Below are positions 19,463-34,967 of a stretch of DNA of 43,163 nt, piece after piece (the stretch's first letter is position 1; each line of letters opens with the position of its first letter). The DNA lies in the IMG/VR virus record IMGVR_UViG_3300009149_000007, positions 1-43,163 of that record. One strand, given 5' to 3'. The translations under genes were made by a program, and so were the position numbers. The notes under the pieces are model-generated. The model was given only the letters and a program-made list of their open reading frames with translations. It was not told the DNA's origin and did not search any database. The stretch is from a virus.

Positions 19463-19473
19463 ATTTTGGTTGG

Positions 19474-19629: not shown

Positions 19630-19661
19630 AGATTTTGAGGTTAAATTATAATGACAAACTT

Positions 19662-19690
19662 AGTATATTCTTTTATATAGAAACTGTCAA
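19662..19690 (-). promoter_or_regulatory. Sigma-70-type promoter with shared spacer element
   Basis: Minus strand: TTGACA (19685-19690), 17-bp spacer, TATACT (19662-19667). The spacer contains TTTCTATATAAAAGAA, also present in the promoter at 23936-23964. It drives the unit beginning at 19629. Confidence 0.8.
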
Positions 19691-19693
19691 GCA

Positions 19694-19915
19694 TTATTTT
19701 ACTTTAGTCCTTGTAAACCTCTTTATTCTTTCTATATTCCAGTCTATATCTATTTTATCAATTAGTTCCAGTGCGTATAGTCTAGTCCATTGGTGCACCC
19801 CTGTTATCATGTCCCTTATCCTTTCTAATCTTCTTTCTCTGTGGTTGACTGCATCTTTATCTACCCAGTCAAAGTATTTCTCTAGCTCTGTCCTGGTATC
19901 GTCAGCATCAGTCAT
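19694..19915 (-). CDS. Small charged helical protein, unknown
   Basis: I chose the ATG at 19915 because it overlaps the preceding stop as ATGACTGA, the same coupling used at 20669. The frame is open further, to 19951. The product has 73 residues, rich in Asp, Arg and Glu, and helical (KDAVNHRERRLERIRDMITG). It is the last gene of its transcription unit; the next promoter's -35 lies just beyond its stop. Function unknown. Confidence 0.55.
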   Translation of the reverse strand: MTDADDTRTELEKYFDWVDKDAVNHRERRLERIRDMITGVHQWTRLYALELIDKIDIDWNIERIKRFTRTKVK

Positions 19916-20105
19916 TGTTTCGTTGAACTTTTTGTATCCATTGTTGTGCATTTTCCAGCGCTTGAGTTACTTTTATACAGGTTGCGACCCGAAGGGGCCT
20001 AATAGTTAAATACGGCACGTCTGAATTAGGGTCAACGGTCATAAGTCTACCAACCATTAAATCTTCACACTCCCTATCGTCACAGTATTCGCATTCGTTC
20101 TTCAT
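19908..20105 (-). CDS. Small Cys-rich protein, unknown
   Basis: The ATG at 20105 (MKNECEYCDDREC) follows the leader AACTTTATAAGGATGAA, which is identical to the leader of the gene at 20236. The earlier ATG at 20138 lies inside that gene. The product has 65 residues. The N-terminal C-x2-C-x5-C cluster suggests metal binding. The C-terminal half is helical. No family recognised. Confidence 0.55.
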   Translation of the reverse strand: MKNECEYCDDRECEDLMVGRLMTVDPNSDVPYLTIRPLRVATCIKVTQALENAQQWIQKVQRNND

Positions 20106-20122
20106 CCTTATAAAGTTAAGTG

Positions 20123-20236
20123 TTAAGGCCTTTCCCATAGTTCAGCATTATACAAATCAGCCAAATCCCTAACCGCTTCCAAAAACTCTTCTCTTTCTCT
20201 GCTGTTGACTGGCTCAATGTCAATTGTGATTTTCAT
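20123..20236 (-). CDS. Very small acidic protein, unknown
   Basis: The protein has 37 residues (MKITIDIEPVNSREREEFLE...), beginning with a beta strand followed by an acidic helix. The leader AACTTTATAAGGATGAA repeats at the following gene. It is accepted because it fills the gap between two genes with a good start, but it is too short to assign. Confidence 0.45.
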   Translation of the reverse strand: MKITIDIEPVNSREREEFLEAVRDLADLYNAELWERP

Positions 20237-20246
20237 CCTTATAAAG

Positions 20247-20669
20247 TTATGATTTAATTATTTCATCTCTCCCTCTAACGTGATGGTCCGCAGAGATAGC
20301 ATACTTTGCCCTACTCTTGAACTCGTTAACTATTCCATTTAAAACAGCTCTCATAAATTCATAGTCACGAGCCTCTGCATAGCCAGAGAATTCAAAGACT
20401 GATTGGCCTCCTACTACATCTCCTAGTACGGTGGGGTCATTTATCATTCCGTCTTCCTTCATTTCCATCCTTAATCCTGCACGTATAGCATCTTCAGGAG
20501 TAAGCTGGAACATCATGTCACTCAATACTAGCTGGACTTGCCCTCTACTATCAGGGTCAAGCTGCATGATGGGGTCTTTCTTCTGTGAATAGATTTCAAC
20601 CAGCTCTTGTCCTACTAGTTGTCCCCTTTGTACATTGACTGGGGTGTCAGGGTTTCTTAGTTCAGTCAT
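20247..20669 (-). CDS. Phage protein of unknown function
   Basis: The protein has 140 residues: a mixed helical/beta N-terminal half (GQLVGQELVEIYSQ) and a C-terminal helix (AEARDYEFMRAVLNGIVNEF). It starts at the ATG overlapping the preceding stop (ATGACTGA). There are no membrane segments or catalytic motifs. Its place between recombination genes and small regulators suggests an early or mid-infection role. Confidence 0.55.
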   Translation of the reverse strand: MTELRNPDTPVNVQRGQLVGQELVEIYSQKKDPIMQLDPDSRGQVQLVLSDMMFQLTPEDAIRAGLRMEMKEDGMINDPTVLGDVVGGQSVFEFSGYAEARDYEFMRAVLNGIVNEFKSRAKYAISADHHVRGRDEIIKS

Positions 20670-20820
20670 TTTTGGGTGGTTTAATTAGTAATTCTACGGC
20701 GTTTTGACAGTAAAGGCTCATCTTTTTTATCTGTAGCTTTTTCTTGTTACGGACAATGTGATCCCGATAAGATAGTCTACTTCTTTCGGGTTCGGAACTT
20801 TCTGGTTTTTTTACGTTCAT
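20662..20820 (-). CDS. Small basic protein, unknown
   Basis: The protein has 52 residues, very basic (RDHIVRNKKKLQIKKM), with helical character. TTAACC lies 9 nt before the ATG, and its TGA overlaps the next start (ATGACTGA). It may bind nucleic acid. It lies between a NinB-like protein and an unknown. Confidence 0.5.
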   Translation of the reverse strand: MNVKKPESSEPERSRLSYRDHIVRNKKKLQIKKMSLYCQNAVELLIKPPKND

Positions 20821-20894
20821 AATCGAGGGGGTTAATTATAAACTTGTTGCGAAGGGCTAACCACTACAGAAGTCCCTCCGCAAGAAATCTATAA

Positions 20895-21269
20895 CTACTT
20901 CTTTAGGCTTTTTTGATAAGCCCCTGTCTGTTCCTGTGAAGGGAACGGAACGTGTATACCCATTCTAGTTCCAAGGGCCAGGTTTAGTGCTTCCCAGATT
21001 GTCGTAATTTCCCCTGTTGTCATTTGGGTAGTCGAGTCTTTTCCAGTCATAGCCTTTAGTACAGGCTTAAATATGTTCTCCTTAACGCTTATTGGAGTCA
21101 CTGGTATATCAAGTCTTATGTTTTCCAGTGTTTCTTTTAAGTTGTACCCTGCACCAGTTAACTCCTCTGCAAGTAGCGTAAAGTAAAGGTGCAAGGATGC
21201 GTTCTGAAGTAAACTCCTTTTCTTGTCTTTAATTCCGAAAATCTTATTTACGTCTTCTTCTGATGTCAT
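20895..21269 (-). CDS. NinB-like recombination accessory protein
   Basis: The protein has 124 residues. The KKRSLLQNASLHLYFTLLAEE stretch is the pattern (R-S/T-x-x-Q-N plus amphipathic helix) of NinB/Orf-like phage recombination mediators, which bind SSB and ssDNA. The neighbourhood (SSB-like protein, exonuclease, annealing protein, RuvC) fits such a role. CTAACC lies 7 nt before the ATG. The family match is by motif only. Confidence 0.55.
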   Translation of the reverse strand: MTSEEDVNKIFGIKDKKRSLLQNASLHLYFTLLAEELTGAGYNLKETLENIRLDIPVTPISVKENIFKPVLKAMTGKDSTTQMTTGEITTIWEALNLALGTRMGIHVPFPSQEQTGAYQKSLKK

Positions 21270-21278
21270 GGATTGTGG

Positions 21279-21512
21279 TTAGAATGGAAGTCCACTGTCT
21301 TTTTCTACTTCTTTGGCTGGCTGCTCCTCCTTTGGCTTTGGCGGGAAGGCTACAAGGTTCTGTGTCCCAAGTGGAATTGCTGTCAACTTGATCCCGATGT
21401 TCGTGTCTTTGATAAACATCGTTCCACACTTAGTCCATTTTGTTTTTTTCTCTCCGCCCTTTTCGTATTCTTCTCCATAAAGGACATCCCTGATTTCTTT
21501 GATTTCTGACAT
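21279..21512 (-). CDS. Probable small single-stranded DNA-binding protein
   Basis: The protein has 77 residues. The first 55 are beta-strand rich (KTKWTKCGTMFIKDTNIGIKL), followed by a short Pro/Lys/Glu linker and a C-terminal DSGLPF. The ending matches the acidic, hydrophobic-Pro-Phe tip by which SSBs recruit partner enzymes. The whole is too short for a typical OB fold of about 110 residues, so this is either a minimal SSB or a diverged one. TTAACC is 8 nt before the ATG. Located with exonuclease and annealing genes. Confidence 0.55.
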   Translation of the reverse strand: MSEIKEIRDVLYGEEYEKGGEKKTKWTKCGTMFIKDTNIGIKLTAIPLGTQNLVAFPPKPKEEQPAKEVEKDSGLPF

Positions 21513-21515
21513 GTT

Positions 21516-22511
21516 TTAAAGGTTAATTGTTTTTTCTTTGATATAATTAGAGGTCTTATTAAGCAGCTCTACAACTGCTACGATAATAGCCTTTGCTTCT
21601 TTGCTTTTGACTTCTGGCAGTTCAATCTGGGTTACCATTACCGCTAACAGGTCAAGTTTCTTTTTGTCTGGAGCAAGTGCGGCATCTTTCTCGGCTTTCA
21701 ATCTTGCTTCTTCATCTGCCTTCTCCTGTTCAGCTTTTTCCTTTTCTTTTCTCTCCTCCTCCTCTTTTTTTGCTTTCATTTCTGCTTCAACCTTTTCCAG
21801 TTTTTTACGCTCTTCTTTTAACTTCTTTTCTTGTTCTGCTTCAACCTTTTCTCTTTCGGCTTGAGCCTTTTTTCTCTCCTCCTCAATGGCTTTATCTTTT
21901 TCTTCTGCTTCTTTTTTTAGCTTCTCGTTTTCTTTCCTAATCTCTTCTTGCCTTTTCCGCTCATCCTCCTCTTCTTTCTTTCTTTTGTCTTCTTCTTCTT
22001 TCTCTTTTTGCTTGCGTAACTCAAAACTTTCTTTCGTATTTTTAAGGAAAGTTTTATAATTATCTTCTGGCATTTCAGCCAAATCAACAAACTGATAATC
22101 AGCTTCGCACTTATCAAGCTCCTGTTCCCTTTCTTCCTTTAATTTATTTTTCCGCTCTTGTTCTTTTCTTTCTGCATACTTTTCCTGTTCTGTTAGGTGG
22201 GCTTCAAGTGGTTCTATTTCTGACCTCAAGTATCGAGCTAGGGCGTCTATCGCCTGACACTTCCTCAGCGGCTGTTCTTTCAGCCTCGCTTTTTCTTTGT
22301 CTGCAGCTACCCTTAGCTTTTTAAGACTGAGCCTGTACTCTCTAGCTTTCTCCATTTCTTCAACTTGAGAAACGTCTTCAATCTTAATAGCCATGCACAC
22401 CTGCTTTACCTTCTCAACCTCTGTAAAAAAGGGGGAGAACACTTCTTTCACTTCTGTTGCGTTTTCTACTTGATTCTCTTCAAGTATTACCGCCAACTTG
22501 CTTTCTGACAT
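21516..22511 (-). CDS. Long coiled-coil protein of the recombination cluster
   Basis: The protein has 331 residues. The central ~150 residues are almost continuous Glu/Lys/Arg heptads (long coiled coil). The N-terminal domain (TEVKEVFSPFFTEVEKVKQV) resembles phage proteins with an N-terminal helical domain and rod. The C-terminal globular tail has KEAKAIIVAVVELLNK. It lies directly after the exonuclease gene with TTAACC 8 nt before the ATG. A role in recombination or as a nuclease scaffold is inferred. The repetitive codon composition explains several spurious frames on the other strand. Confidence 0.6.
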   Translation of the reverse strand: MSESKLAVILEENQVENATEVKEVFSPFFTEVEKVKQVCMAIKIEDVSQVEEMEKAREYRLSLKKLRVAADKEKARLKEQPLRKCQAIDALARYLRSEIEPLEAHLTEQEKYAERKEQERKNKLKEEREQELDKCEADYQFVDLAEMPEDNYKTFLKNTKESFELRKQKEKEEEDKRKKEEEDERKRQEEIRKENEKLKKEAEEKDKAIEEERKKAQAEREKVEAEQEKKLKEERKKLEKVEAEMKAKKEEEERKEKEKAEQEKADEEARLKAEKDAALAPDKKKLDLLAVMVTQIELPEVKSKEAKAIIVAVVELLNKTSNYIKEKTINL

Positions 22512-22513
22512 GA

Positions 22514-23110
22514 TTATTTGGTTAATTGATTTTTAATAGCTTTAATCTTTCCTTCTGCCGACTTGAATCCTTCCAAGAGCTTTGCGTGTTTATCTTCGTC
22601 AACAAACACCCTGTGGATAAAGATAGACTTCTCAAAATTGGGGTTATAAGCCACCATATCACACCACTTTCTTCCTGTTATTAGCATTTGCATTTGCATT
22701 TGTGCCATATAGTCGGTACTGATTGCTTTTTCTCCTTCTAAAAGGAATTTAAAGTAGTTCTTGTCGTTTGGGCATTTGATTTCCACAAGTCCATCTTCTC
22801 CCACCAGCCGATCAGGACTACACCCCACAAACTCGTTGTACTCTACGAATCCAACCTTTTCTAACTCTACTCCTACTTCCATTTCATAAGCAGATGCTGC
22901 AAGTTCTTCCAGCTCATTGCCTCTGTCCATATCGGCATTAGAATAATACTCCCTCTCTCCGCTTGAATAATACTCGCTCATAAGCTCTAAAACATAAGTG
23001 TCGAGTCCTTTACCGTTTGTTGCGATTGCGGTGGCGTGAGAGGCTGTAACGCGCCCCTTACGAAGTTCTAGCCACTCAGGTGTTCCCTGTTCAACGTCAT
23101 GTATAATCAT
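22514..23110 (-). CDS. YqaJ/lambda-exonuclease-family DNA exonuclease
   Basis: The protein has 198 residues. The fold is recognisable: GTPEWLELRKGRVTASHA, then DRGNELEELAASAYE, the active-site Asp in GCSPDRLV, the E-x-K pair in LVEIKCP, and MAQMQMQM. These are the signatures of the YqaJ/Red-exo nuclease family, which resects DNA 5' to 3' to make ssDNA for the annealing protein encoded next. Its ATG overlaps the annealing gene's stop (4 bp), so the pair is co-translated. TTAAC precedes the start. Confidence 0.9.
   Translation of the reverse strand: MIIHDVEQGTPEWLELRKGRVTASHATAIATNGKGLDTYVLELMSEYYSSGEREYYSNADMDRGNELEELAASAYEMEVGVELEKVGFVEYNEFVGCSPDRLVGEDGLVEIKCPNDKNYFKFLLEGEKAISTDYMAQMQMQMLITGRKWCDMVAYNPNFEKSIFIHRVFVDEDKHAKLLEGFKSAEGKIKAIKNQLTK
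22520..22525 (-). promoter_or_regulatory. TTAACC translation-start element (example, 8 nt before ATG 22511)
   Basis: On the minus strand TTAACC lies 8 nt before the ATG at 22511 and no purine-rich Shine-Dalgarno is present. It overlaps the end of the upstream exonuclease gene. Confidence 0.6.
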
Positions 23111-23607
23111 TGTTCTTTTGTTAATTGATTTTTCTTGTTCATTATAAGGGCTGCAACCTCTTTACCTTTGCCCTCGTTTTTCTTGTAAAACTCTCTGAGC
23201 TCCTCGATTGTTTTAATCTCTACAAGCTCTGCTTGGATAGTAAGCATTTCCTCCTGTCTCTTTTCTTCTACGTATTCCTGGAACTCTTCCATCTCCTCTG
23301 AACTTGCGATTTCTCCACTTGCCATGTACCCAAGCATTGCTAGTGCCCTACCTACGGCAATTGATTCTACTTTCTCAAATGCCTTTTGCCCTTTATTTTC
23401 TCCGATAGCATGCCCTGATGCCTCTGCTGAACTTTCTTTAGCCTTGTCTTTAAGGATTCTCGCCTTAAACATTATAGTAGTTCCTTCGATAGTAGGAGTT
23501 GTTTCGATTAGTCCGTTTGGACAATCTTCTCTGAACAGTTTTAGCCTGTCTGCAACCTTTGCATAGTCGGCTCCTCCACCGATCTTAATTGTTTGTGTCT
23601 TTTTCAT
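23107..23607 (-). CDS. Single-strand annealing protein (Rad52/Erf-like superfamily)
   Basis: The protein has 166 residues. The order YAKVADRLKLFREDCPNG, IEGTTIMFKARILKD, ASGHAIGENKG, then EKVESIAVGRALAMLGYMA followed by EIASSEEMEEF is the known pattern of phage recombinases annealing ssDNA. It ends in a helical tail. It works with the exonuclease (22514-23110) to anneal resected ends. ATAACC lies 10 nt before the ATG. The exact subfamily (Sak, Erf or other) is not fixed. Confidence 0.8.
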   Translation of the reverse strand: MKKTQTIKIGGGADYAKVADRLKLFREDCPNGLIETTPTIEGTTIMFKARILKDKAKESSAEASGHAIGENKGQKAFEKVESIAVGRALAMLGYMASGEIASSEEMEEFQEYVEEKRQEEMLTIQAELVEIKTIEELREFYKKNEGKGKEVAALIMNKKNQLTKEQ

Positions 23608-23609
23608 GA

Positions 23610-23858
23610 TTAGTTGTGGTTATGTGATGCTTCGTTCATGTTCTCGTAATAAGCCTCTGCACACTCTAGGCAGCAAAACTTATCATCGATACTGTCGTCT
23701 TCAATTCTTTCTTTGCACCAGATACAAACAGGAAGCTTGTGCTTTCTTTCAACCAAAGCCTTAACAGCTTCCAGCTTCTCCTCATGGACATCAAAGTCGG
23801 AGCTTTCCACTTTGTATTCAAGTGTACCGAGCTCTACGGTGGTTACGATTTTCAACAT
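23610..23858 (-). CDS. Small zinc-finger protein, first gene of recombination unit
   Basis: The protein has 82 residues. The N-terminus is a short beta strand segment. The C-terminal half carries CIWCKERI and KFCCLECAEAYYENM, a four-Cys zinc finger of the treble-clef or ribbon kind, ending in a His/Asn-rich tail. The promoter at 23936-23964 is 77 bp upstream and TTAACC is 8 nt before the ATG. As first gene after a strong promoter it is a candidate regulator. Confidence 0.65.
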   Translation of the reverse strand: MLKIVTTVELGTLEYKVESSDFDVHEEKLEAVKALVERKHKLPVCIWCKERIEDDSIDDKFCCLECAEAYYENMNEASHNHN

Positions 23859-23935
23859 AGTATAGTGGTTAAATGTTGTGGCGAGAACGATTACTTACAG
23901 GGCGTATGTTTGCTCTATGAATCACTCTCGAACTC

Positions 23936-23964
23936 ATACTATTCTTTTATATAGAAATAGTCAA
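23936..23964 (-). promoter_or_regulatory. Sigma-70-type promoter for the recombination unit
   Basis: Minus strand: TTGACT (23959-23964), 17-bp spacer, TAGTAT (23936-23941). Spacer and upstream flank are nearly identical to the promoter at 19662-19690, which suggests common regulation. A leader of about 70 nt follows. Confidence 0.8.
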
Positions 23965-23970
23965 GTCTTT

Positions 23971-24114
23971 TTATACTTTAAAGATTCTTTTTTCTGTCTT
24001 TTCGTTTATGGCTAGTCGAATATACTTGGATTGTGAGTACCCGTTTACGTCACAATACTTCTTAAATTCTTCGTGTTCGGTTTTATCGCAACCGAATGTA
24101 ATTAGCGTCTTCAT
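23971..24114 (-). CDS. Small ribbon-helix-helix-like protein
   Basis: The protein has 47 residues: MKTLITFGCDKTEHEEFKKY, then GYSQSKYIRLAINEKTEKRIF. A beta strand followed by a helix and a second helix (SKYIRLAINEK) fits the RHH DNA-binding fold found in small phage and plasmid repressors. It starts 11 bp after the methylase stop and ends 7 bp before the -35 of the next promoter (23959-23964), so autoregulation of that promoter is conceivable. Classification is by pattern only. Confidence 0.5.
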   Translation of the reverse strand: MKTLITFGCDKTEHEEFKKYCDVNGYSQSKYIRLAINEKTEKRIFKV

Positions 24115-24124
24115 TTTTATATGT

Positions 24125-24814
24125 TTAAAATAATACTTCTTGTCTTAATCTTTCTTCCCCAACCTTGCAATAATCTTCTGATAATTCAAATCCTATAAAG
24201 TCTCTGCCTAAATCCTTACACGCCCTTGCTGTTGTCCAGCTTCCCATGAAGGGGTCGCAGATTAGGTCTCCTGGCTAGCTGTAGTTTTCTATTATCCATC
24301 GCATAAGCGCGACTGGTTTTTGAGTGGGGTGGGTCCTAAGCTCGGCTTTATCCTTTGTTCCGTTTATATAGTCTAGGCCAATCCACCCATATTGAAAGTA
24401 TCTGACCGCACTTTTAAAAGAAGTCCATGCGAGTTCGCAGTCTGCAAAGTCAGAATTGTCATTCACTTTTTTGTGCCAAACAATCCAACATGGACTAGGG
24501 GGGAGGTCAAAGTAGTTTCCCCCAAGCACAATCTGGTTCTTGCTCATTCTGAACACCTCGTTAAAGGTTTCTTTTTTTGGAGTAGTTTTGTCCCAAGAGG
24601 TGTCGCCATATGTTTTATTTGCAAAGCCCTTTCGGGCCGTCTTTGTTTCTCCATGCACCCCTCCCTTTGCAACCCCTATCCCATAAGGGGGGTCGGTCAA
24701 AACCAAGTCAATGCTCTTATCGGGTATCAGCTTCATTCCCTCAAGGCAATCCGCTTGGATAATCTGATTTTTCATTTCAGTCCAATGACTAAAATCCTTC
24801 AATGTTTTTACCAT
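24125..24814 (-). CDS. DNA (N4/N6) methyltransferase, beta class, interrupted by one in-frame TAG
   Basis: The frame reads from 24814 through TAG (24275-24277) to TAA (24125-24127): 229 codons with the TAG at codon 180. Before the TAG are the catalytic motif (LTDPPYG) and [19 protein letters not shown]. After it, in the same frame, are [15 protein letters not shown] (the AdoMet-binding F-x-G-x-[GW] region) and [16 protein letters not shown]. This order (DPPY first) is the beta class of phage methylases. A product stopped at the TAG would lack AdoMet binding. The first 26 bp overlap the HNH gene. An internal start at 24775 (MKNQII) is possible. Functional only if the TAG is read through or is an error. 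Confidence 0.75.
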
Positions 24815-25283
24815 GCTTACGTTTATAGTGATAGTTTTTCATGTAATGCTTCCTGCACAATAAGTTGTTGTACTCTTTTTCTCCGCAGATTTTACACACT
24901 CCTTTTTCCTTCCTGTTGTGTTTTCTGCTCAAGGTGTCAATGTCATGTTTTTGTAGTATCATTCGGATAGGATAAGCTGAACACTTGTATTTCTTCTTCA
25001 ACTCGTTTATTGACTTTCCTTTTTCGTATTCTTCACATATTTCAACCTCTGGTAAAAAATGCTGTTTTTTGTATCTGCTCTCTACTCCTATTTTATGCGT
25101 TTTTATATGGATAGACCTGTCTGTTATTTTAAGGTTTTCTATTCTGTTGTCGTGGATATTCCCGTTTTTATGATGCACGAGTTCACTCTCTGATAACCCT
25201 CTCCCCAAGTGTTTTTGCATAATCCATCTGTGCAACCTAACCTGCTTTCCGTTCACCCATTTCGTTTTATAGCTTTTTGGCAT
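24789..25283 (-). CDS. HNH homing-type endonuclease
   Basis: The protein has 164 residues. The N-terminal nuclease ([24 protein letters not shown], then [10 protein letters not shown]) is an HNH_3-type domain. A NUMOD-like helix follows ([11 protein letters not shown]). A C-terminal zinc knuckle pair ([18 protein letters not shown]) completes it. It lies between the true methylase and a 20-residue remnant resembling the methylase N-terminus, which suggests invasion of the methylase gene. TTAATAAAAACACT precedes the ATG. Its last bases overlap the methylase start. Confidence 0.85.
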
Positions 25284-25329
25284 AGTGTTTTTATTAACAC
25301 CGCCATATTACACTTTGTTTAGCATGAGG

Positions 25330-25392
25330 TCAACCGCAAACAACTTGGTTCTTGAGTTCTTGCCAGTCTTTTATGTCTTTTAGGTATTTCAT
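25330..25392 (-). CDS. 20-codon ORF, remnant or copy of methylase N-terminus
   Basis: The ATG at 25392 overlaps the preceding stop as ATGA. The peptide runs MKYLKDIKDWQELKNQVV and then two residues before TGA. It aligns with the methylase start [19 protein letters not shown] at K-x-LKD---W-x-E-x-KNQ, then two hydrophobic residues: about 10 identities in 18. It is probably the original methylase 5' end, cut off when the HNH gene inserted. A leader peptide is the alternative. Confidence 0.5.
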   Translation of the reverse strand: MKYLKDIKDWQELKNQVVCG

Positions 25393-25577
25393 CTAAATGG
25401 TTTAAATGTTTGTTCATACCAGAGCTCATTCTCAAAGAAGTCTTTAGTGTTGTCCGCCATGTTCTGGTGTCGATCCCTGCCTCTAAGAAAAGCCTCTCTG
25501 CATTGATTAAGTCTTTGCACTGGTTTTATCAGCACGTTATAGTCCTCCATTGATATTTGTACGTTTAATCTCTCCAT
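25389..25577 (-). CDS. Small early protein, first leftward gene
   Basis: The protein has 62 residues: MERLNVQISMEDYNVLIKPV, then charged helices (QCREAFLRGRDRHQNMAD) and a Trp-containing end. The -10 box ends only 6 bp before the ATG, so the mRNA would be leaderless or nearly so. Likely among the first phage genes expressed. No family recognised. It overlaps the next ORF by ATGA. Confidence 0.6.
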   Translation of the reverse strand: MERLNVQISMEDYNVLIKPVQRLNQCREAFLRGRDRHQNMADNTKDFFENELWYEQTFKPFR

Positions 25578-25583
25578 GCCTGT

Positions 25584-25612
25584 ACTATATTGTTATATAT
25601 AGGTTGTGTCAA
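25584..25612 (-). promoter_or_regulatory. Leftward early promoter, leaderless arrangement
   Basis: Minus strand: TTGACA (25607-25612), 17 bp, TATAGT (25584-25589). The ATG at 25577 is 6 bp after the -10, so transcription would begin at about the ATG itself. Confidence 0.75.
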
Positions 25613-25759
25613 TATAAATGTTCTTTACAATGTTTAAAATGTTTGTTAGGATTGTGTCAGTTACTAATCGACACCATAAATTAAATCAATTACTGGAACA
25701 CAATTGTAGGCTGCCCACTCCCACTGTTTTTGGTGTCGAACTTCTGACAGTGGGGGTGG
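25604..25759. promoter_or_regulatory. Divergent control region with inverted and direct repeats (operator candidates)
   Basis: Between the two outward promoters lie TTGTGTCA twice (near 25604 and 25652), an inverted pair TCGACACCA (25668-25676)/TGGTGTCGA (25731-25739), and an inverted pair of 13 bp with one mismatch (25715-25727 and 25747-25759, CCACTCCCACTGT and its complement). The last overlaps the -35 of the rightward promoter. These are plausible repressor or activator sites. No repressor gene of lambda type was found. Confidence 0.5.
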
Positions 25760-25771
25760 ATAGTTTATAAT
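25744..25771 (+). promoter_or_regulatory. Rightward early promoter for the replication genes
   Basis: CTGACA (25744-25749), a 16-bp spacer, TATAAT (25766-25771). The ATG at 25780 follows 8 nt after the -10, again predicting a leaderless or almost leaderless mRNA. Confidence 0.65.
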
Positions 25772-25779
25772 TTAAAAAC

Positions 25780-26583
25780 ATGTATACAACCATAATTCAT
25801 CCATTAAGAAAAGCTTTATGCCTGTCTATTCAGGAATACGTTTTGCTTGATACTGTTTATCACCTTTCAAATAATCAAAAATATGGACATTGGTGCATTA
25901 TGAGTAAGAAAAAATTAGCTGATGTCTTAGATGTTAATCCAGATACTATTTACCGCATACTTAAAACGTTAGAAGCAAAAGGCCTAATAGAAAGAGATGA
26001 TGTAACTGGGTACATTAGAACGCTGGATAGCTTTAATGAAATGATAGCTAATAAACATGATTGGCTAATTGGTTTTAAAGGAAAAGAATCGGCTCTGTTA
26101 TCAGGAAAGTTTAACTTAGACTCGGAAAATCCGAGAGGGTCTCGGAAAGTCCGACAAGGGGTCTCGGAAAATCCGAGTCCGACCTCTCGGAAAATCCGAG
26201 ACAATAATACTAATATAAATAATAATAAAAATAATCTTTTGAGTGTGAGCTTTGAAAAGTTTTGGAAAGCTTATCCGAAAAGGAAAAACAAGGCTTCTGC
26301 ATTCAAAGCTTTTCAAAAAGTAAAAGTTCCGCTCGAGGATTTGCTAAAAGCTGTTGAAGTCCAGAAAAATTCTGAAGAATGGAAAAAGCAAGGTGGACAA
26401 TTCATTCCATACCCTGCTTCGTGGCTAAACGGGGGAGCTTGGGAAGATGAAGCTGATATAGCTGTTGAAGCTGCTGAAAATGATTTAATAGCATATTACA
26501 AATCTGTAAACTGCAACGATGCGATGTTTATAAAAAAGCATGGTATAGATGCTCTATCAAAAATAATTAACAAAATCCTATGA
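25780..26583 (+). CDS. Replication initiator, lambda O-like with winged helix
   Basis: The protein has 267 residues. Residues about 10-95 form a helix-turn-helix or winged-helix domain (SIQEYVLLDTVYHLSNN, MSKKKLADVLDVNPDTIYRI, LEAKGLIERDD). A low-complexity linker at about 114-155 is encoded by the repeat region. The C-terminal part (SFEKFWKAYPKRKNKASAF, then IPYPASWLNGGAWEDE) is the conserved helicase-loader end of phage replication proteins. The initiator therefore carries its own origin, as lambda O does. The stop overlaps the helicase start (ATGA). Confidence 0.85.
   Translation: MYTTIIHPLRKALCLSIQEYVLLDTVYHLSNNQKYGHWCIMSKKKLADVLDVNPDTIYRILKTLEAKGLIERDDVTGYIRTLDSFNEMIANKHDWLIGFKGKESALLSGKFNLDSENPRGSRKVRQGVSENPSPTSRKIRDNNTNINNNKNNLLSVSFEKFWKAYPKRKNKASAFKAFQKVKVPLEDLLKAVEVQKNSEEWKKQGGQFIPYPASWLNGGAWEDEADIAVEAAENDLIAYYKSVNCNDAMFIKKHGIDALSKIINKIL
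26121..26238. other. Probable replication origin: four iterons plus AT-rich region
   Basis: Four copies of the 15-mer CTCGGAAAATCCGAG begin at 26121, 26141 (two changes), 26163 and 26186, spaced 20-23 bp, about two helical turns. Each is a near-perfect inverted repeat (CTCGGA/TCCGAG). Bases 26201-26238 are almost all A or T and would melt easily. The array lies inside the initiator gene and is translated there as a linker. This is the arrangement of lambda-type origins. Confidence 0.75.
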
Positions 26584-28331
26584 AATTCCTACAAAACTTT
26601 AGAAACACAGTATTTCAAACATTCAAAGATCGAACAGATGCTGGAGGATATGCAAAGATATTCTTTGAATACGATGAAACCGAATTCAGAAAGCTAAACA
26701 AGTCTGGTTGCGGAATATATTTCACTCCAAACGGATTCAAGGATGGTAGAAAATTAGGAGACCTAGTTTCAATTAACGCAGCATTTGCAGATTTAGATTT
26801 TGCAAAAGAAGGTGACAACATTTCTCAAGAGGAGAACGACAGGCGTCGAACCCTCATCACAAATGCACTTCTGAGCGACAGAATCACGCCTAATTTCATT
26901 TTAAATACGAAAAACGGTGTTCAGCCTATCTGGACACTCGAAGGGGCTGAGATCGACGATAACACACGTCAGAATTGGACATGGCTTATTAAAGGCATTA
27001 TTGAGTGGTCAAAACAATATGGTTGTGCTGGTGATGAAGTTAAGGATTTAACTAGGGTGATAAGGCTTCCAGGTTATTATCACATGAAGGGCGATCCGTT
27101 CATGGTGACCGTTGATGAATACTCTGATGAAAAATACCCTATCTGGTTTATGAGAGAAGCGTTCCCATACGAAGAACCAGAAGCCCCAAAGGTAGAGAAG
27201 CCTAAATATAAAAAAGGCGATGTGGCTAATGAGGTTGATAGATTGGATTTTCAGGAGCTTGTTATCAGGGCTTTTGCAAGTGTTGGCAGGACAGCCTCTT
27301 TTGATGACAAGAAACGATTGATTCTTGATGGTAGGCTGACTGGTACACATCAGGGCAAAACTGGTGATGGAAACTTCTTAGCCAGTTCTAGTCACGAACC
27401 ATTCCAGGGTAATCGAATAACAGTTGTTTCTGATATTCTAGGAGTTACGAACAAAGAAGCTTACAGGTGGATCAAAGAAGAATATGGACTTGATGATGTT
27501 GTGAAGGGGAGGAAAACAGAAAAGGTCGTGAAAGAAGTTTTAACTGAAAATGAAGTTATTGCAGATATAGATGCAGAAGCAAAAGTTTTTACATGGGGAA
27601 CAGAAAACCTCAATTCAAGCATTAGCCCTATTCAGCAACATCATTTTATTATCGTGGCTGGAGACACTGGGGCTGGTAAAACTACATTTTGTTTTGACGT
27701 AGCATGGAAGAACGCAGTTGAAGGAAAGAAGGTTTTGTTTCTATCACTAGAAATGACCGAAAATGAGATATATAATAGGCTCGCCAGGGGCTTTGCTTCA
27801 ATAAAGAAAAATGAATAGAGGAACAGAAAGACGATTGTGGATTCTAAAAAAGAAGCTTATCACAGGAGAATAGGTGAGGTAAAGAGTTTAAAGAATTTAG
27901 TGTTAAGAGGAATGGCTGGAGTAGACGCAACGGTTGAAAATATGTTTGAAATAATCAAGAGCGTTTCTCCTGATATTGTTTTTATAGACAACTTTGATTT
28001 GATACAGAAAGACAATGGTGTTTCTGAATACAATGAGCAAAACAGGGTAGCAAAAGAGCTAATGGATTTCCCAAAGAAAAACGAAATTCCGCTTATAGTT
28101 TTACATCATAAGAAAAAAGGAAAAGAGGTTGGGATTGATTCGATTAGGGGCAGTGGAAAGATAACCCACAACTGCGATAGTGCTCTTATTTGCTCTAGAA
28201 CCTACGACATTGATGCAACACCAATGGAGAATTCTATGTTCGTTGTTAGGCAAGAAAAGGATAGAGACTTTGGACAGCTGTCACTGTGCAATGTTTACTT
28301 TAAGAAAGGAAGTTTTTACGATAATTATTAA
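26580..28331 (+). CDS. AEP-type primase plus DnaB/RecA-type helicase, interrupted by one in-frame TAG
   Basis: The frame is continuous from 26580 to 28331 (584 codons) apart from TAG at 27816-27818 (codon 413). Residues about 40-200 form a RepB-type primase of the archaeo-eukaryotic kind: AFADLDF with two Asp, NGVQPIWTLEG, DLTRVIRLPGYYHMKG. From about 345 is a RecA-like motor: Walker A GDTGAGKTT, the LSLEM element, then after the TAG IVFIDNFDLI (Walker B), LIVLHHKKK and IRGSGKI. The spacing is normal, so the TAG interrupts one helicase domain. A GTG at 27837 could restart translation, but neither half alone would have a complete motor. Confidence 0.8.
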
Positions 28332-28333
28332 CC
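28328..28333 (+). promoter_or_regulatory. TTAACC translation-start element (example, 9 nt before ATG 28343)
   Basis: The hexamer includes the last bases of the helicase stop and lies 9 nt before the ATG at 28343; no Shine-Dalgarno is visible. Confidence 0.6.
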
Positions 28334-28342
28334 AAATATATT

Positions 28343-28624
28343 ATGAAAATCAGATGTAATCGCTGCGAGAAAATCGTAGATGGAATAATAACTCCACAGA
28401 TAGCAAAGTTCACACACGAACTTCAAGCTACAGACAAAAGGATTCCAAAGTATAACGTAATGCTTAGGGCAACGTGCTCAGAATGTGATAGGTACATAAC
28501 ATTTGTTAGTCAAACTTCTGACACAGTAGATGAGGCAAATGAAAACATGACTAATTACTTAAATGACCTTGCCAACCACAATAGCGTTATATATAATAAA
28601 GGTGAAGGTAACCCAAGCCTATGA
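28343..28624 (+). CDS. Small zinc-ribbon protein of the replication module
   Basis: The protein has 93 residues. Two CxxC pairs, CNRCEKI near the start and CSECDRY at about residue 48, form a zinc ribbon. The C-terminal part is an acidic helix (TVDEANENMTNYLNDLA). It has a clear TTAACC start element, and its TGA overlaps the next ATG. It follows the helicase and may bind DNA or a replication protein; function unknown. Confidence 0.65.
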   Translation: MKIRCNRCEKIVDGIITPQIAKFTHELQATDKRIPKYNVMLRATCSECDRYITFVSQTSDTVDEANENMTNYLNDLANHNSVIYNKGEGNPSL

Positions 28625-28833
28625 AAATAATAATCGAACTTGTAGACGACAACTCAGCAGAGGTGAAGATGGAGTCAGGCCAGATTCCAACTATTGAGCA
28701 GGTAGACACTATCGAGCTTGCAATGAATTCTTATTTAGACAGGCTACACAGCGTTGTACTTGAGCAGAAGATTGAGGACATTGTTCTTGGCACATTTAAA
28801 AGTAAGATGGAAAAGGTTCCCGAAGAGAAGTGA
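28621..28833 (+). CDS. Small acidic protein, unknown
   Basis: The protein has 70 residues and begins MKIIIELVDDNSAEVKMESG, a beta hairpin followed by a long helix (VDTIELAMNSYLDRLHSV). It is translationally coupled to the zinc-ribbon gene (ATGA). The DNA just after it forms the structured-RNA candidate. No family recognised. Confidence 0.55.
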   Translation: MKIIIELVDDNSAEVKMESGQIPTIEQVDTIELAMNSYLDRLHSVVLEQKIEDIVLGTFKSKMEKVPEEK

Positions 28834-28858
28834 TCTTTAAAATTATAGTTCCTAGCAC

Positions 28859-28962
28859 CCTCGGAGAGAATCCGAGGAATACATCTTTTCATAGGGATGA
28901 TTCGCCAGAAATGGCGAGATGAGGTCGGTGTATCCCCCTGTTTAGCTTGACTACTCAGGGGG
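28859..28962 (+). ncRNA. Candidate compact structured RNA (four helices)
   Basis: P1: CCTCGGA/TCCGAGG (28859-28865, 28871-28877). P2: ATACATC/GGTGTAT (28879-28885, 28927-28933; one G-U pair). P3 inside P2: TCGCCA-GAAA-TGGCGA (28902-28917), a stem closed by a GNRA tetraloop. P4: CCCCCTG/CAGGGGG (28934-28940, 28956-28962), directly abutting P2. Helices packed end to end with a GNRA loop indicate a folded RNA rather than chance. It lies just before the HNH gene at 28983. It may be a leader, processing site or intron-like relic. No known ribozyme core was recognised. Confidence 0.55.
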
Positions 28963-28982
28963 CAATGCCGTATCATAGGAAT

Positions 28983-29453
28983 ATGAAAACATGTACTTTG
29001 TGTAAAAAAGAGCTTTCGCATGACAACTTCTACAAAGACAAGAGGGGTAGAGACGGCCTGTATTCGAAATGCAAGGGGTGTCATAACCTCAAGAGTGATG
29101 AGACAAAGATGAAGAGGTATTATTCTGATGACGTGTTTAGAAAGAAGGTTCTTGATAGGGCGACGGGGCGGTCACGGACACCAATGGGGAGGGAGTATTA
29201 TCGTCGCAAATATGCGGAGGACGATAGGTATAGAGAAAGGCAGCTCGCAAAGGGTGCGGTTGGAAGAGCGATTACCAAGGGCTTCCTGGTGAAAGGGCCA
29301 TGCTTCATTTGTGGCTGTACAGAAGATGTCCACGCTCATCACAAAGACTATAGAAAAAAACTTAGCGTAGAATGGTTGTGCAGGGGGTGTCATAACGAGT
29401 GGCACAGGAATAATAGCCCTGTATACGATTCTGCTGAGGGTGTTGGGAATTAG
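28983..29453 (+). CDS. HNH endonuclease with N-terminal zinc finger
   Basis: I chose the ATG at 28983 (MKTCTLCKKELSHDNFY); the frame is open back to 28947, inside the RNA helix P4. The product has 156 residues: an N-terminal four-Cys finger (CTLC ... CKGC), a basic helical middle, and a C-terminal HNH core (CFICGCTEDVHAHHKDY, then WLCRGCHNEWHRN). This type is usually a free-standing homing endonuclease. It lies between replication and packaging genes and is preceded by a structured RNA. Confidence 0.8.
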   Translation: MKTCTLCKKELSHDNFYKDKRGRDGLYSKCKGCHNLKSDETKMKRYYSDDVFRKKVLDRATGRSRTPMGREYYRRKYAEDDRYRERQLAKGAVGRAITKGFLVKGPCFICGCTEDVHAHHKDYRKKLSVEWLCRGCHNEWHRNNSPVYDSAEGVGN

Positions 29454-29472
29454 TATATAATCAGTTTATAAT
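29443..29472 (+). promoter_or_regulatory. Possible promoter before the packaging genes
   Basis: TTGGGA (29443-29448), an 18-bp spacer, TATAAT (29467-29472). It lies 20 bp before the small gene at 29492. The -35 is weak, so confidence is modest. Confidence 0.4.
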
Positions 29473-29491
29473 TAAATTTAATTAGTAAATT

Positions 29492-29671
29492 ATGCACAGG
29501 AAAAGGTTTATTGGAGATCCAGCTGGTAATAAGGTTTCCTTTGGAGATCCTACGGGGAATAAGGGTGTCTCTGAGTTATTTACTGTCGGGCCGAATGCAA
29601 CGGCAATAATCGAGAGCACATCCCTGGATAAGACAGAGATGACGGTTAGATTTAAACTTAATAGTAAATAG
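29492..29671 (+). CDS. Small protein with GDPxGNK tandem repeat
   Basis: The protein has 59 residues. Two tandem copies of GDP(A/T)GNK (residues 8-14 and 18-24) precede a short beta segment (TVGPNATAIIESTSL). A possible promoter is just upstream. I do not recognise the family. It is the first of a run of small genes leading to terminase. Confidence 0.5.
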   Translation: MHRKRFIGDPAGNKVSFGDPTGNKGVSELFTVGPNATAIIESTSLDKTEMTVRFKLNSK

Positions 29672-29735
29672 GACAATATAGACAAAACAGCTAACCCTAT
29701 ACACAGGTAAGAAGCTATGTATAAATAAAACAACA

Positions 29736-29876
29736 ATGACAAAATGTGAAGGATGTGAAGATGTGGAAGCCACTTACGAGTGTGTAGATTGTGGACAAAA
29801 GCGTTGTGAGGACTGTGCAGAGGGAGGATACGCAGGATGTGACTGTAGCCCACCACAATTCAAGAAAATTAAATAA
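29736..29876 (+). CDS. Small Cys-rich zinc-binding protein (B-box-like)
   Basis: The protein has 46 residues and 9 Cys, in the series CEGC, ECVDC, RCEDC and GCDC. This resembles a B-box or other cross-braced zinc finger. The longer frame that overlaps this region is the shifted extension of the next gene and is not real. Function unknown; protein-protein or nucleic-acid binding is likely. Confidence 0.6.
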   Translation: MTKCEGCEDVEATYECVDCGQKRCEDCAEGGYAGCDCSPPQFKKIK

Positions 29877-29889
29877 AACAACAAATAAT

Positions 29890-30216
29890 ATGCCTAAGAA
29901 AAAAGTATTAAAAACAGAAGTAGTAGTAGTTGATTACCCAGAAGGCTTAGTCGCCGAGCTAAAGAAGACAGACAAGGCCATTCTTAAAGGTATCAAGAAG
30001 CTAAACAAGGATCTAAACAAACGAGCAGACGAAATGCTTAAGAAGACGTTTGAGTCCGCAGAAGAAGGATCTCCTACTGTAACCAAAGAACAAGTAATGG
30101 AACATCTAGCTACTAGATTCGGACTAATGCCCTACAAAGATTACTATGTAGGAATGGTTAACTTTTCATTTATCCCACAAAAACTTAAACAACTTATAGA
30201 TGCCGAAAAGAACTAG
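29890..30216 (+). CDS. Small Lys-rich helical protein upstream of terminase
   Basis: The protein has 108 residues with the start at 29890 (MPKKKVLKTEVVVVDYPEG); the upstream part of the frame is shadow. Residues about 20-60 are Lys-rich helix (KKTDKAILKGIKKLNKDLNK). The end is mixed (RFGLMPYKDYYVGMVNF). It overlaps the terminase small subunit gene by 17 bp. Function unknown; possibly DNA binding or packaging-associated. Confidence 0.55.
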   Translation: MPKKKVLKTEVVVVDYPEGLVAELKKTDKAILKGIKKLNKDLNKRADEMLKKTFESAEEGSPTVTKEQVMEHLATRFGLMPYKDYYVGMVNFSFIPQKLKQLIDAEKN

Positions 30217-30649
30217 AGAGACACCATTAACAGGAAAAACCAAGTCAGGCGAAATACTATCTGAACAAGAAGAACTCTTCTGTAACCTATATGTCGAACA
30301 GATGGGGAACGGCACTAAGGCTGCTATGGCTGCTTACGGTTCAGACGAGAAACCAGTTAACAAAAACGTAGCTTCCTCAATCTCTTCTGAAAACTTGAGA
30401 AAACCCAAGCTTTTAGAGAGAATACGTGAACTACTAGATCTTGGACCGCTTTCTGATGAATCAGTTGATGCCGAATTAAGCTTCTTAGTTTCACAACAAG
30501 ATGATCTTGCAGCTAAACGTGGTGGACTTGAGATCTACAATAAGCTTAAAGGGCGCTACGAGAAGCATAATACGCAGAAACAGACTAATGTAACCGTGGT
30601 GAATGTGGAGAAGGTTGAGGAGATTAAAAAAGCACTTGAGGATATTTAG
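30200..30649 (+). CDS. Terminase small subunit
   Basis: The protein has 149 residues. The pattern SEQEELFCNLYVEQMGNGTK, then AAMAAYGSD, ASSISSENLRKPKLLERI is the Terminase_2-type small subunit: a helix-turn-helix DNA-recognition domain followed by an oligomerisation helix. It recognises the packaging site for the large subunit. It is separated from the large subunit by one gene. Ends TAG. Confidence 0.85.
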   Translation: MPKRTRETPLTGKTKSGEILSEQEELFCNLYVEQMGNGTKAAMAAYGSDEKPVNKNVASSISSENLRKPKLLERIRELLDLGPLSDESVDAELSFLVSQQDDLAAKRGGLEIYNKLKGRYEKHNTQKQTNVTVVNVEKVEEIKKALEDI

Positions 30650-30731
30650 GGTGAAAAAATGCTGAAATGGCTTATTGACTTGATCCTCTCGACGGAGAAG
30701 GTTACAAACAAGAATAAATGTTCTATAATAA

Positions 30732-31121
30732 ATGAAACTAATAACAGTTCCAGTGTTTACAGAAGAATACAAGATAAGAGTGTTTTTTGGTAACGACGAG
30801 CAGAGGGCAAAGAAGATAGCTAAATATGTACATGACTGGAGTTATGAAGAGGCACTAGGGCACTGTGAGAAAAGCCGAGGGAATGCTTTTAATTCACTTC
30901 CTAGTGGCGACCCACTCATAACGATAGACGAGGGCTTTGGAAAAGAGAGTGTGTTGTCTACGCTTCCTCATGAGGCCGTTCACTGTGCTAAATATATAGC
31001 GGACTTTCTAGGCATAAACGATTCTAGTGGTGAATGGGAAGGGCATATTGTGTCAGCCGTAATGAGGTATTGTACTGGCCATGTATTGAAATTAAAGAAA
31101 TCTAAAAATGAAAAACGCTAA
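30732..31121 (+). CDS. Zincin-like protein between terminase subunits
   Basis: The protein has 129 residues. LPHEAVHCAKYIADFLG carries the HExxH metallopeptidase motif, followed about 17 residues on by a second acidic residue (GEWEGHIVSAVMRY), the layout of zincin or wss-type peptidases. N-terminal beta strands (KIRVFFGNDEQ) precede it. It overlaps the large-terminase start. Similar small metalloprotease-like proteins occur near phage packaging genes, but the role (prohead or host protein cleavage) is unproven. Confidence 0.6.
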   Translation: MKLITVPVFTEEYKIRVFFGNDEQRAKKIAKYVHDWSYEEALGHCEKSRGNAFNSLPSGDPLITIDEGFGKESVLSTLPHEAVHCAKYIADFLGINDSSGEWEGHIVSAVMRYCTGHVLKLKKSKNEKR

Positions 31122-32676
31122 ACAGTACATAGAGAAGATCATACTTGAAGGGTCTCCAGCTGAGAAGATGGAACTGTATGGTTTTGATAGAACAACATCT
31201 GAAGGATTACTACTGAAGAAGTTCAAGATATTTTGTCGTGGCAACTATCCACGATTCTTTCAGTGTAAGTCTGCTGAGTTCCACGATGATATGATTAGGA
31301 ATATGATTAAGTCGTATTACGGAATGAATTTTTTAGATATAGCTGGAAGAGGATTGGCTAAAACGACGATAGCAAAGCTGTTTATCACGTTTGTACTGCT
31401 GAACGACAGAGATCAGTCCAGGAGATACATTAAAGTTTTGACGAAGGATTTCAAGAACTCTAAGCAGATAGTCACTGATGTATACAACTTAACAGTTGAG
31501 GTGAGGGCAATATACGGAGATGTATTTGAGAAGGAAGGAGATCTTAAAAGAGAAGAAACAATGGGAAGCTTCACGATGAAGGACGGAAGGAAGCTTGCAT
31601 CAGGAACAGTTGGTCAGACTCAACGTGGGCACATACAAGACGCCTATAGACCAGATTGGTTAATAGGTGATGATTTGGAAGACAGAGACTCTATTAAGTC
31701 CTCTACGGTGACCCAGGGGATCATAGACAGATGGGAAGAAGCAGTGAATGGACTAGCAAGAGAAGGAAGCTACATGGTGCTGTCTAATTATATCTCTGAT
31801 CAAGGAACTACTCAGCATATCATGGACAAGCCTTCAGTGGAAACTAAAATCTATCCATTGGCAGACTTAGACCTGAAGCCGCTGTGGCCAGAACGTGATA
31901 CTGAAAAGGATATACAAAAGATTAAGGACGATTCAGATGATTTCTGGGGAGAGTACATGTGTGATCCACAAAGATCAGTTAACAAGTTCTTCGACACAGA
32001 GAGGGTTGAGGAAGACATGAGAAAAGCTAGTTTGCCTACAAGAGAAGCGGCTGGAGTTAAATACTGGGCAAGTTATCAATCACATCATAGGTATGGACAA
32101 GGATCGGATCATTCGGAAGGTGTGGGACTTGATTCAAACACATTGGCAGGATTTGATTTCACAACGGGTGAGCTTATTTATACTTATGCTAGTAACGTGA
32201 TTGCACCCGATTTAGCAGCTCATGAGTTCGCTAGGGTAGGAGCAGAGTTTGGGAATTGTATTTATGGGTTCGAGGTTAACCATGAATGTGGAGGAACAGT
32301 GAGGGCTACGCTGAAACAGTTGGGGTATCCAAATCTGTACAAACAGGTCAAGGAAGAGAAGATGCAGACTATACAGACCGAGAACGTTGGATGGAAAACT
32401 ACTAGTGTTACTAAGCGGAATATGTTCATGGAGTTCAGGACAGACTACAATGATGGACTGATCAAGATACACGATGTAGAGGTGCTTAAAGAGATGAAAG
32501 CTTATTCTAATAGTGACTTAGGAGAGAAAACAGTAGGATTGATTACTCGACACTTTGACTTATTGATGGCGGTTATTATTGCTTGGCAGATGAGGGGGCT
32601 GGCTGTTGTTAAAAAGAATAAGGTGGCCTACGGATCGTCTGTTGATAAGTTTTTAGAAGAAACTAGTGATTATTAG
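31108..32676 (+). CDS. Terminase large subunit (packaging ATPase-nuclease)
   Basis: The protein has 522 residues. The N-terminal ATPase has a deviant Walker A (DIAGRGLAKTTIAK) and Walker B with catalytic acids (DWLIGDDLED). The C-terminal nuclease (RNase H-like) has an Asp at AGFDFTTGE, Glu at GFEVNHECGG, and late acidic region DLLMAVIIAWQM. This is the T4/T7-type packaging motor. It sits between the small subunit and portal. The start overlaps the zincin gene by 14 bp. Confidence 0.9.
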   Translation: MKNAKQYIEKIILEGSPAEKMELYGFDRTTSEGLLLKKFKIFCRGNYPRFFQCKSAEFHDDMIRNMIKSYYGMNFLDIAGRGLAKTTIAKLFITFVLLNDRDQSRRYIKVLTKDFKNSKQIVTDVYNLTVEVRAIYGDVFEKEGDLKREETMGSFTMKDGRKLASGTVGQTQRGHIQDAYRPDWLIGDDLEDRDSIKSSTVTQGIIDRWEEAVNGLAREGSYMVLSNYISDQGTTQHIMDKPSVETKIYPLADLDLKPLWPERDTEKDIQKIKDDSDDFWGEYMCDPQRSVNKFFDTERVEEDMRKASLPTREAAGVKYWASYQSHHRYGQGSDHSEGVGLDSNTLAGFDFTTGELIYTYASNVIAPDLAAHEFARVGAEFGNCIYGFEVNHECGGTVRATLKQLGYPNLYKQVKEEKMQTIQTENVGWKTTSVTKRNMFMEFRTDYNDGLIKIHDVEVLKEMKAYSNSDLGEKTVGLITRHFDLLMAVIIAWQMRGLAVVKKNKVAYGSSVDKFLEETSDY

Positions 32677-32705
32677 TTTACGAACAAAAATTAAGGGTTT
32701 ATAAT
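32677..32705 (+). promoter_or_regulatory. Probable promoter before the portal gene
   Basis: TTTACG (32677-32682), 17 bp, TATAAT (32700-32705). It gives a short leader that contains a small inverted repeat (CCACG/CGTGG around 32721-32743) next to the start. Confidence 0.5.
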
Positions 32706-32745
32706 ATATATGAAAGCACTCCACGCGTATTTCTAACACGTGGCT

Positions 32746-34482
32746 ATGGTATATGTGCAAAATATCTCCAAGGATAAGGATGGAATGAATGACAAGTCCG
32801 TTTCTGATTCTTTGTATATGATCTCTCGCGGTTATCAGTATAAGAGTGAGAGAGACGAGAAGAACGATAACATTAGAAGTTTATTCAAGGAAGGTTTTCA
32901 GGTTTCTGATCCGACTGGAACAAGGAAGATAGGATCAAAGGTATTGCAGCAGGTTATTTGGCGATCTAGATCTAAGTTTAAGTTTCTAGACTTCCAGATT
33001 CACGGAGTTAATAAAGAAGGAATCCCTAAAACTCAAGGGACTGAGAAGTTACTGTCGGACGGTGTTAGGACGGTGGCCGACAAAGGGCGACTGATGAGTT
33101 GCTTCAGGGATAAGGGAGGAATGGTGGACAATCTTTCTTTTTACGGAGACGCATTTTTAGAAGTAGGAAAAGACGAAAACAGTTCAACACCAATTGAGTT
33201 CAAGCTGCTCAGAAATGAAAGTGTATATGTTGATGACTATGCCTATGGTATTAGGGGAACACGCCCAGCATACAAGCTGACAACCATATATCAGTATGAT
33301 AAATCAGAGGCATATAAGCTTTTCCCTGAGCTAGAGGAGGCTGGTATATTCGGAAGAGTTCCTGGAAGCTATCAGACAAACAGTACACAAGAAACAGATC
33401 AAGAAGACATATTAGAGATAGCCAAGGCGTATAACATAGTGGATCAAAAAATGGCATTATACGCTGGATCGCAAGCATATAGGATAAAACTTTGGGATGG
33501 AGAAGAATATCCATTTATGAAGATGAAGGAGCCGTATATCCCAGTAAGTCAGTTCATGTGTCAGCCTTCAGTTGACCAGTTTTATAACTACGGAATAGCA
33601 GACATGGTCTACGATCTTGCAGTAATGCAGCGTAGATTGTTCAACGCACAAACTAATCACACATTTGATTCCACTGATCCATTGGCATTCTTAAGTGGTC
33701 CAGAAGGATCAATGGACGACCTTATGGAGAAGATGGCTTACGCTTATAAGATGAGAGCTCAAGGCAAGAAGCCTGTTGTTCCAATGGAATACGGAGCAGG
33801 AGGGGCAGGGGCTAGTCAAATAGGGGTACAGTCGCTACTTACTAATAGCTTGGCTAATGAGTGGCAAATGATGTGGGAAACTTTCGCAAGAGAGATAGCG
33901 AGATTAGGAGTAAATATAGATGATTTAGCACGAGGAGCGAATGTAACAGCTTCTCAAGTAATAGCAGAAGAAGAGTCTAGCAACGCTTTCGTTAAGCAAA
34001 TTATGGAAAATAATGCTAGTGAGACACAGGAGTTGATCGAGATAATAATGGACTCGGTTACTCAGTTTGTGCCTAATTCGAGCAAGGAGCTTTTGCAGCT
34101 TACAACTCGAATACCTAAAGCTGATGGAAGTTTCGCAGAATTACCAAGAGGCTTGACGATGGGGGGATTAAGTGAGGAGTTAAAGAATGGAGAAAACTGG
34201 TGTTACGTGAACTCACGAACAGGAACAATCCCAAGTGATCTAATGAAGATTACACAGATCCAGAGACAACTAGGGGCAACAGCACCAGGAAGTCCAGAGT
34301 ATCAAGAGCTGTATAGGCAGATGGCATACTATAATGATGTTGATTTGGCTGGTAGTGGATCAGGACAGGGCGGACCAGACGCACCACAGCAAGGGGGTGG
34401 AGAGATTCCAGAAGGAGTAGTGGCAGCTGATACAGAACGGATACAGGTAAATCCTAGACAAGCAGTTCCACAACCTATTTAG
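32746..34482 (+). CDS. Portal (head-tail connector) protein
   Basis: I chose the ATG at 32746 because CTAACA lies 8 nt upstream; a GTG at 32740 is an alternative. The product has about 578 residues. The N-terminal half (SRSKFKFLDFQIHG, DNLSFYGDAFLEVG) and central helices (ADMVYDLAVMQRRLFNAQTNHT) fit the portal fold, with a long helical stem (MMWETFAREIARLG, ASETQELIEIIMDSV) and a Gly/Gln-rich C-terminus. It forms the dodecameric DNA channel. It follows the terminase, as usual. Confidence 0.85.
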   Translation: MVYVQNISKDKDGMNDKSVSDSLYMISRGYQYKSERDEKNDNIRSLFKEGFQVSDPTGTRKIGSKVLQQVIWRSRSKFKFLDFQIHGVNKEGIPKTQGTEKLLSDGVRTVADKGRLMSCFRDKGGMVDNLSFYGDAFLEVGKDENSSTPIEFKLLRNESVYVDDYAYGIRGTRPAYKLTTIYQYDKSEAYKLFPELEEAGIFGRVPGSYQTNSTQETDQEDILEIAKAYNIVDQKMALYAGSQAYRIKLWDGEEYPFMKMKEPYIPVSQFMCQPSVDQFYNYGIADMVYDLAVMQRRLFNAQTNHTFDSTDPLAFLSGPEGSMDDLMEKMAYAYKMRAQGKKPVVPMEYGAGGAGASQIGVQSLLTNSLANEWQMMWETFAREIARLGVNIDDLARGANVTASQVIAEEESSNAFVKQIMENNASETQELIEIIMDSVTQFVPNSSKELLQLTTRIPKADGSFAELPRGLTMGGLSEELKNGENWCYVNSRTGTIPSDLMKITQIQRQLGATAPGSPEYQELYRQMAYYNDVDLAGSGSGQGGPDAPQQGGGEIPEGVVAADTERIQVNPRQAVPQPI

Positions 34483-34511
34483 ACTTTCCTGGCATATTTA
34501 ATGTAACTACA

Positions 34512-34868
34512 ATGAAGGTAATAAATAGGATAAAAGGCTGGTTTAAGAAGAAAAAGCCAATAGAGATAGAGGCCGCACTGAAGAAGTATATGAAGAAGAT
34601 GGCGTATAGCAAGATGGAATACGCAAGAGATCTTATAGAGATACCAAGTTTGAAGAATTTCTCAGATATATACGACAAGGACAAGGATAGTTTACTCCTT
34701 GTTATCACAAAACTGGAGCATGAGTTCTTTAAAGAGGGGCCAACACAAAGCGAGATGGCAGCGGTGGAGCAGGTATTAGCGAGGTTATGGATGTTCTTTA
34801 AACAGTGTGATGAGGAATATAAACTGTTTGAGGCACTGAATAAGGCCCAAGCAGTAAAGAAGAAGTAG
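34512..34868 (+). CDS. Small helical protein between portal and scaffold
   Basis: The protein has 118 residues. It is Lys-rich at the start (IKGWFKKKKPIEIEAAL) and then helical throughout, with Lys/Glu pairs (LLLVITKLEHEFFKEG). Found between portal and scaffold, it may be a head-associated or assembly factor. No family recognised. Ends TAG. Confidence 0.6.
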   Translation: MKVINRIKGWFKKKKPIEIEAALKKYMKKMAYSKMEYARDLIEIPSLKNFSDIYDKDKDSLLLVITKLEHEFFKEGPTQSEMAAVEQVLARLWMFFKQCDEEYKLFEALNKAQAVKKK

Positions 34869-34895
34869 ATCATTAACAATTTGTAGTTCGTAGCG

Positions 34896-34925
34896 GCTCA
34901 AAGGCATGTGGAGTGCCCTTTGAGC
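34896..34925 (+). promoter_or_regulatory. Hairpin before the scaffold gene
   Basis: GCTCAAAGG (34896-34904) pairs with CCTTTGAGC (34917-34925), a 9-bp stem with a 12-base loop and no T-run after it. It may mark mRNA processing or slow ribosomes. It lies 43 bp before the scaffold ATG (34968). Confidence 0.4.
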
Positions 34926-34967
34926 TACTATGGCTTACAAAGCCTGATACTTTATAACTTAGGAATT

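Follow-up and report, generated by a model that had tools for sequence, protein, structure and literature searches.

An in-frame TAG within a phage primase-helicase gene probably reflects wrong bases in one metagenomic record

Introduction

How can a phage gene for a replicative helicase bear a stop codon in the middle of its motor domain? The question is raised by a stretch of viral DNA of 43,163 nucleotides (IMG/VR record IMGVR_UViG_3300009149_000007), hereafter the window, in which the frame opened by the ATG at 26580 runs for 412 codons, meets a TAG as codon 413 and then resumes for 170 codons up to the TAA at 28329-28331. A previous sequence-only reading left four explanations standing: readthrough, suppression in the early phase of infection, restart at the GTG at 27837 and an assembly error. 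Comparison with a near-identical record favours the last of them (or, failing that, a private nonsense mutation) and speaks against the other three. The features of the gene are:

26580..28331, plus strand: primase/DnaB-type helicase gene, 583 codons and a TAA, interrupted by TAG in the window record only
27816..27818, plus strand: in-frame TAG, read as TGG (Trp) in the near-identical record

Anatomy of the interrupted helicase

Translated across the TAG, the gene yields 583 residues with a single DnaB-type ATPase domain to which both halves contribute. The claim that the TAG splits a RecA-type helicase domain is borne out by domain scores far better for the whole than for its parts: the halves match Pfam DnaB_C with E-values of 1e-10 and 2e-4 and the whole with 1.6e-20 (residues 340-575), and for PHROG 19 the corresponding values are 3.5e-16 and 8.6e-11 against 3.6e-33. 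The anatomy described earlier also stands, with Walker A (GDTGAGKTT) and the LSLEM element upstream of the TAG and Walker B (IVFIDNFDLIQ) downstream, in the same frame and with normal spacing. The read-through protein thus carries in one chain the RecA-type core, Walker A, Walker B and the later motifs of a DnaB_C member, in the same order as the DnaB-type replicative helicases of phages (PHROG 19, PHROG 239 and Pfam DnaB_C), from which it differs in an N-terminal half weakly matching the primase/polymerase-type PHROG 2478.

Three differences from a near-identical record

When viral contigs were scanned with the helicase protein, a sole relative emerged, IMGVR_UViG_3300024262_000225, which aligns with the window over its whole length at 99.988% identity; DNA-pattern and protein searches gave no further near-identical viral record, and queries of the collection of bacterial and archaeal genomes with the helicase and the terminase brought up no relative of either. 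The features that the comparison brings in are:

12289..37087, no strand: stretch common to both records, 24,799 bases, three mismatches, no gaps
27811, plus strand: second G/A difference, AAT (Asn) in the window and AGT (Ser) in the relative, six bases 5' of 27817 and two codons before the TAG
24125..24814, minus strand: N6/N4 DNA methyltransferase gene, 229 codons and a TAA, interrupted in the window record by a second TAG
24275..24277, minus strand: second in-frame TAG, read as AAG (Lys) in the near-identical record, with Lys in four of four aligned phage homologues

At position 27817 the window has A (TAG) and the relative G (TGG, Trp), so that the helicase of the latter is uninterrupted (locus L001, 6001-7752; DnaB_C E-value 2e-20), and at position 24277 the window has A and the relative T, which on the minus strand turns TAG into AAG (Lys). 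Two of the three differences therefore create a TAG in the window, and the relative has neither. All three are non-silent, with zero synonymous divergence and no indels, and the lack of synonymous differences and indels argues that both records are effectively one phage, of which the helicase TAG is, judging from this pair, not a fixed feature.

The methyltransferase is assigned by Pfam PF01555 and PHROG 67, and its domain scores still identify a single gene on either side of the TAG, which removes the AdoMet-binding motif DPFMGSW. That motif (24236-24256, minus strand) reads DPFMGSW in both records, with GSG or GSA in most aligned homologues. Elsewhere in the window, a small protein encoded at 14212-14622 (minus strand), adjoining the structural genes, matches the phosphoheptose isomerase PHROG 1238 (4e-22).

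Which of the two records deviates? The alignment with homologues that had been suggested as a check gives Trp at the helicase site in the near-identical record and sense codons, with no stop, in four distant phage helicases, among which Trp is not conserved; two separate homologous genes, the alternative raised at the same time, are not seen, the near-identical relative having one gene. Furthermore, in both genes the stop of the window takes away motifs needed for activity. Together with the Lys kept in the methyltransferase homologues, this points to the intact form as the ancestral one, and we infer that the deviating bases lie in the window and not in IMGVR_UViG_3300024262_000225.

Sequence error as the preferred explanation

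The explanation that we consider best, and hold to be probable, is that the TAGs are due to wrong bases in the window record, in a thinly covered stretch of its metagenomic assembly. The helicase TAG would then be an isolated substitution in one record, the normal gene of the phage would have a Trp codon at the site and encode an uninterrupted primase-helicase, a second isolated substitution in the same record would have put the TAG into the methyltransferase gene, and no readthrough mechanism would be required. Whatever its exact origin, the helicase TAG is very probably not part of the biology of the phage as such.

The spacing of the differences is informative in this regard. Among three random positions, the chance of a pair six bases apart is about 0.0015, so the two G/A changes are probably one local event, for instance one bad read, although a multi-nucleotide mutation would fit as well as a faulty read in thin coverage. 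The kind of change is less comfortable for a plain error model. About 4% of random single substitutions across the shared stretch give a nonsense codon. Gene boundaries were set by eye for this figure, and two of them were mis-specified (the methyltransferase, placed at 24127 when it should be 24125, and a small gene at 28622-28831), which should shift it little since these are small parts of 24.8 kb. Given that one nonsense change had been picked for attention, the chance of another among the other two differences is about 4-8%, which makes the second one mildly surprising under random substitution; put otherwise, two nonsense changes in two or three events is somewhat above what plain error would lead one to expect. 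Moreover, the comparison rests on one near-identical record, and no specific misassembly mechanism was found, the rest of the window offering the variant k-mers no template of more than 11 bases. A templated change or a misjoin from elsewhere in the window lacks support on the same ground: no match of more than 11 bases includes a variant base.

Editing by a deaminase was also considered. APOBEC- and DddA-like deaminases prefer TC; here, the minus-strand C to T changes lie in CC and AC contexts and the intervening TC is left intact, and the third difference (T/A) belongs to another class, all of which makes such editing unlikely. With errors in metagenome contigs and private nonsense variants the locus shares isolated gene-breaking substitutions that are missing from a near-identical independent record; it departs from them in that both gene-breaking events yield TAG and the G/A pair among the three changes is separated by six bases. 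A literature search for assembly errors giving premature stops in viral contigs yielded nothing.

Real mutations in a defective variant as an unlikely alternative

Could the substitutions instead be real? The assembled genome would then be a defective variant of the population, with nonsense mutations in helicase and methyltransferase, one that persists only with the aid of helper phages during mixed infection or was sampled by coincidence. The flanking sequence shows no other departure from the intact form, a single multi-nucleotide mutation can produce changes six bases apart, and the phage may be able to do without its methyltransferase. Nonetheless, given the role of DnaB-type helicases, loss of the motor should be lethal, and a genome lacking it should not dominate a consensus. 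This is the reason for preferring sequence error to real mutation, and we regard the defective variant as unlikely, at roughly the level of a serious minority possibility.

Readthrough, suppression and recoding

Functional readthrough, in which a suppressor tRNA of the host partly decodes TAG as an amino acid and both genes work, is very improbable. In its favour, one record carries two in-frame TAGs in genes that are otherwise intact, in frame and normally spaced, and a tRNA of the host could conceivably do the decoding. Against it, the TAG sites are occupied in the near-identical record by two distinct sense codons (Trp and Lys), and TAG is a regular terminator: as had been noted from the sequence, it ends many other genes, by our count about 13 of the 42 in the window, the terminase among them. 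Reading through the TAG at 34866, for example, would extend the protein by about 260 codons, over the gene that follows. A six-frame scan for long TAG-joined frames found only two genes interrupted by an in-frame TAG, and the window contains no tRNA gene in its 43 kb (a result that holds for the window only, since the genome may extend beyond this record) and no Rfam match. At the helicase TAG, to which the folding was confined, the 100 nt on the 3' side fold no better than shuffled sequences (z = +0.99), so that a readthrough stem-loop there can be discarded.

Programmed readthrough would be recognised by a stop conserved in close relatives and by a stimulating 3' structure or context; instead, sense codons occupy both sites in a 99.988% identical record, and no such structure or context is found at the helicase TAG. 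Similarly, recoding of TAG goes with rare termination at TAG, a suppressor tRNA of the phage and many conserved genes with in-frame TAGs, none of which is seen here (the tRNA within the window). Known TAG-recoding phages have many in-frame TAGs together with suppressor tRNAs, and in phAss-1, one of them, 41 ORFs contain TAG and the genome encodes three suppressor tRNAs (PMC10607447). The window resembles phAss-1 in having in-frame TAG within phage genes of known function, but it has two of them, no tRNA gene and TAG as a common terminator. The earlier judgement that a global code change is unlikely is thus upheld. Global TAG recoding is rejected in view of how often TAG terminates genes, of the tRNA content and of the uninterrupted genes in the relative, and neither programmed readthrough nor recoding is supported. 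More doubtful still is a situation in which amber alleles of helicase and methyltransferase coexist with intact ones and exchange almost freely with them, the host, or part of it, decoding TAG.

Possible restart downstream of the TAG

Least credible is a two-protein arrangement, with translation ending at the TAG and the C-terminal portion produced from a start of its own. GTG 27837 and later ATGs do share the frame, but none of these starts has TAACC at the usual spacing of this phage, each half of one RecA fold is incomplete (the fragment from GTG 27837 lacks Walker A) and the near-identical relative has one gene. Restart at GTG 27837 or at the later starts is accordingly rejected for want of an initiation motif there.

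The motif itself deserves a comment. TAACC, often as TTAACC, stands about 13 nt upstream of many starts: it begins at a distance of 12-16 nt in 15 of the 42 genes, where about one would be expected (examples are the starts at 10380, 20669, 21269, 22511, 28343, 37064 and 38505), and Shine-Dalgarno-like GGAG/GAGG is nearly absent before gene starts of the window. TTAACC also precedes two of the seven starts in a relative, L009. As TAACC recurs upstream of operon-internal genes, it may be a non-Shine-Dalgarno motif for translation initiation; a literature search for it gave nothing relevant.

Significance

With wrong bases in the record as the preferred explanation, a tempting candidate for stop-codon readthrough in phages is removed. 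The case also offers a cheap test for recoding candidates in general, which is to check a near-identical independent record before recoding is proposed. If, on the other hand, both amber alleles were real and common, the phage would represent a natural amber-suppression system worth study.
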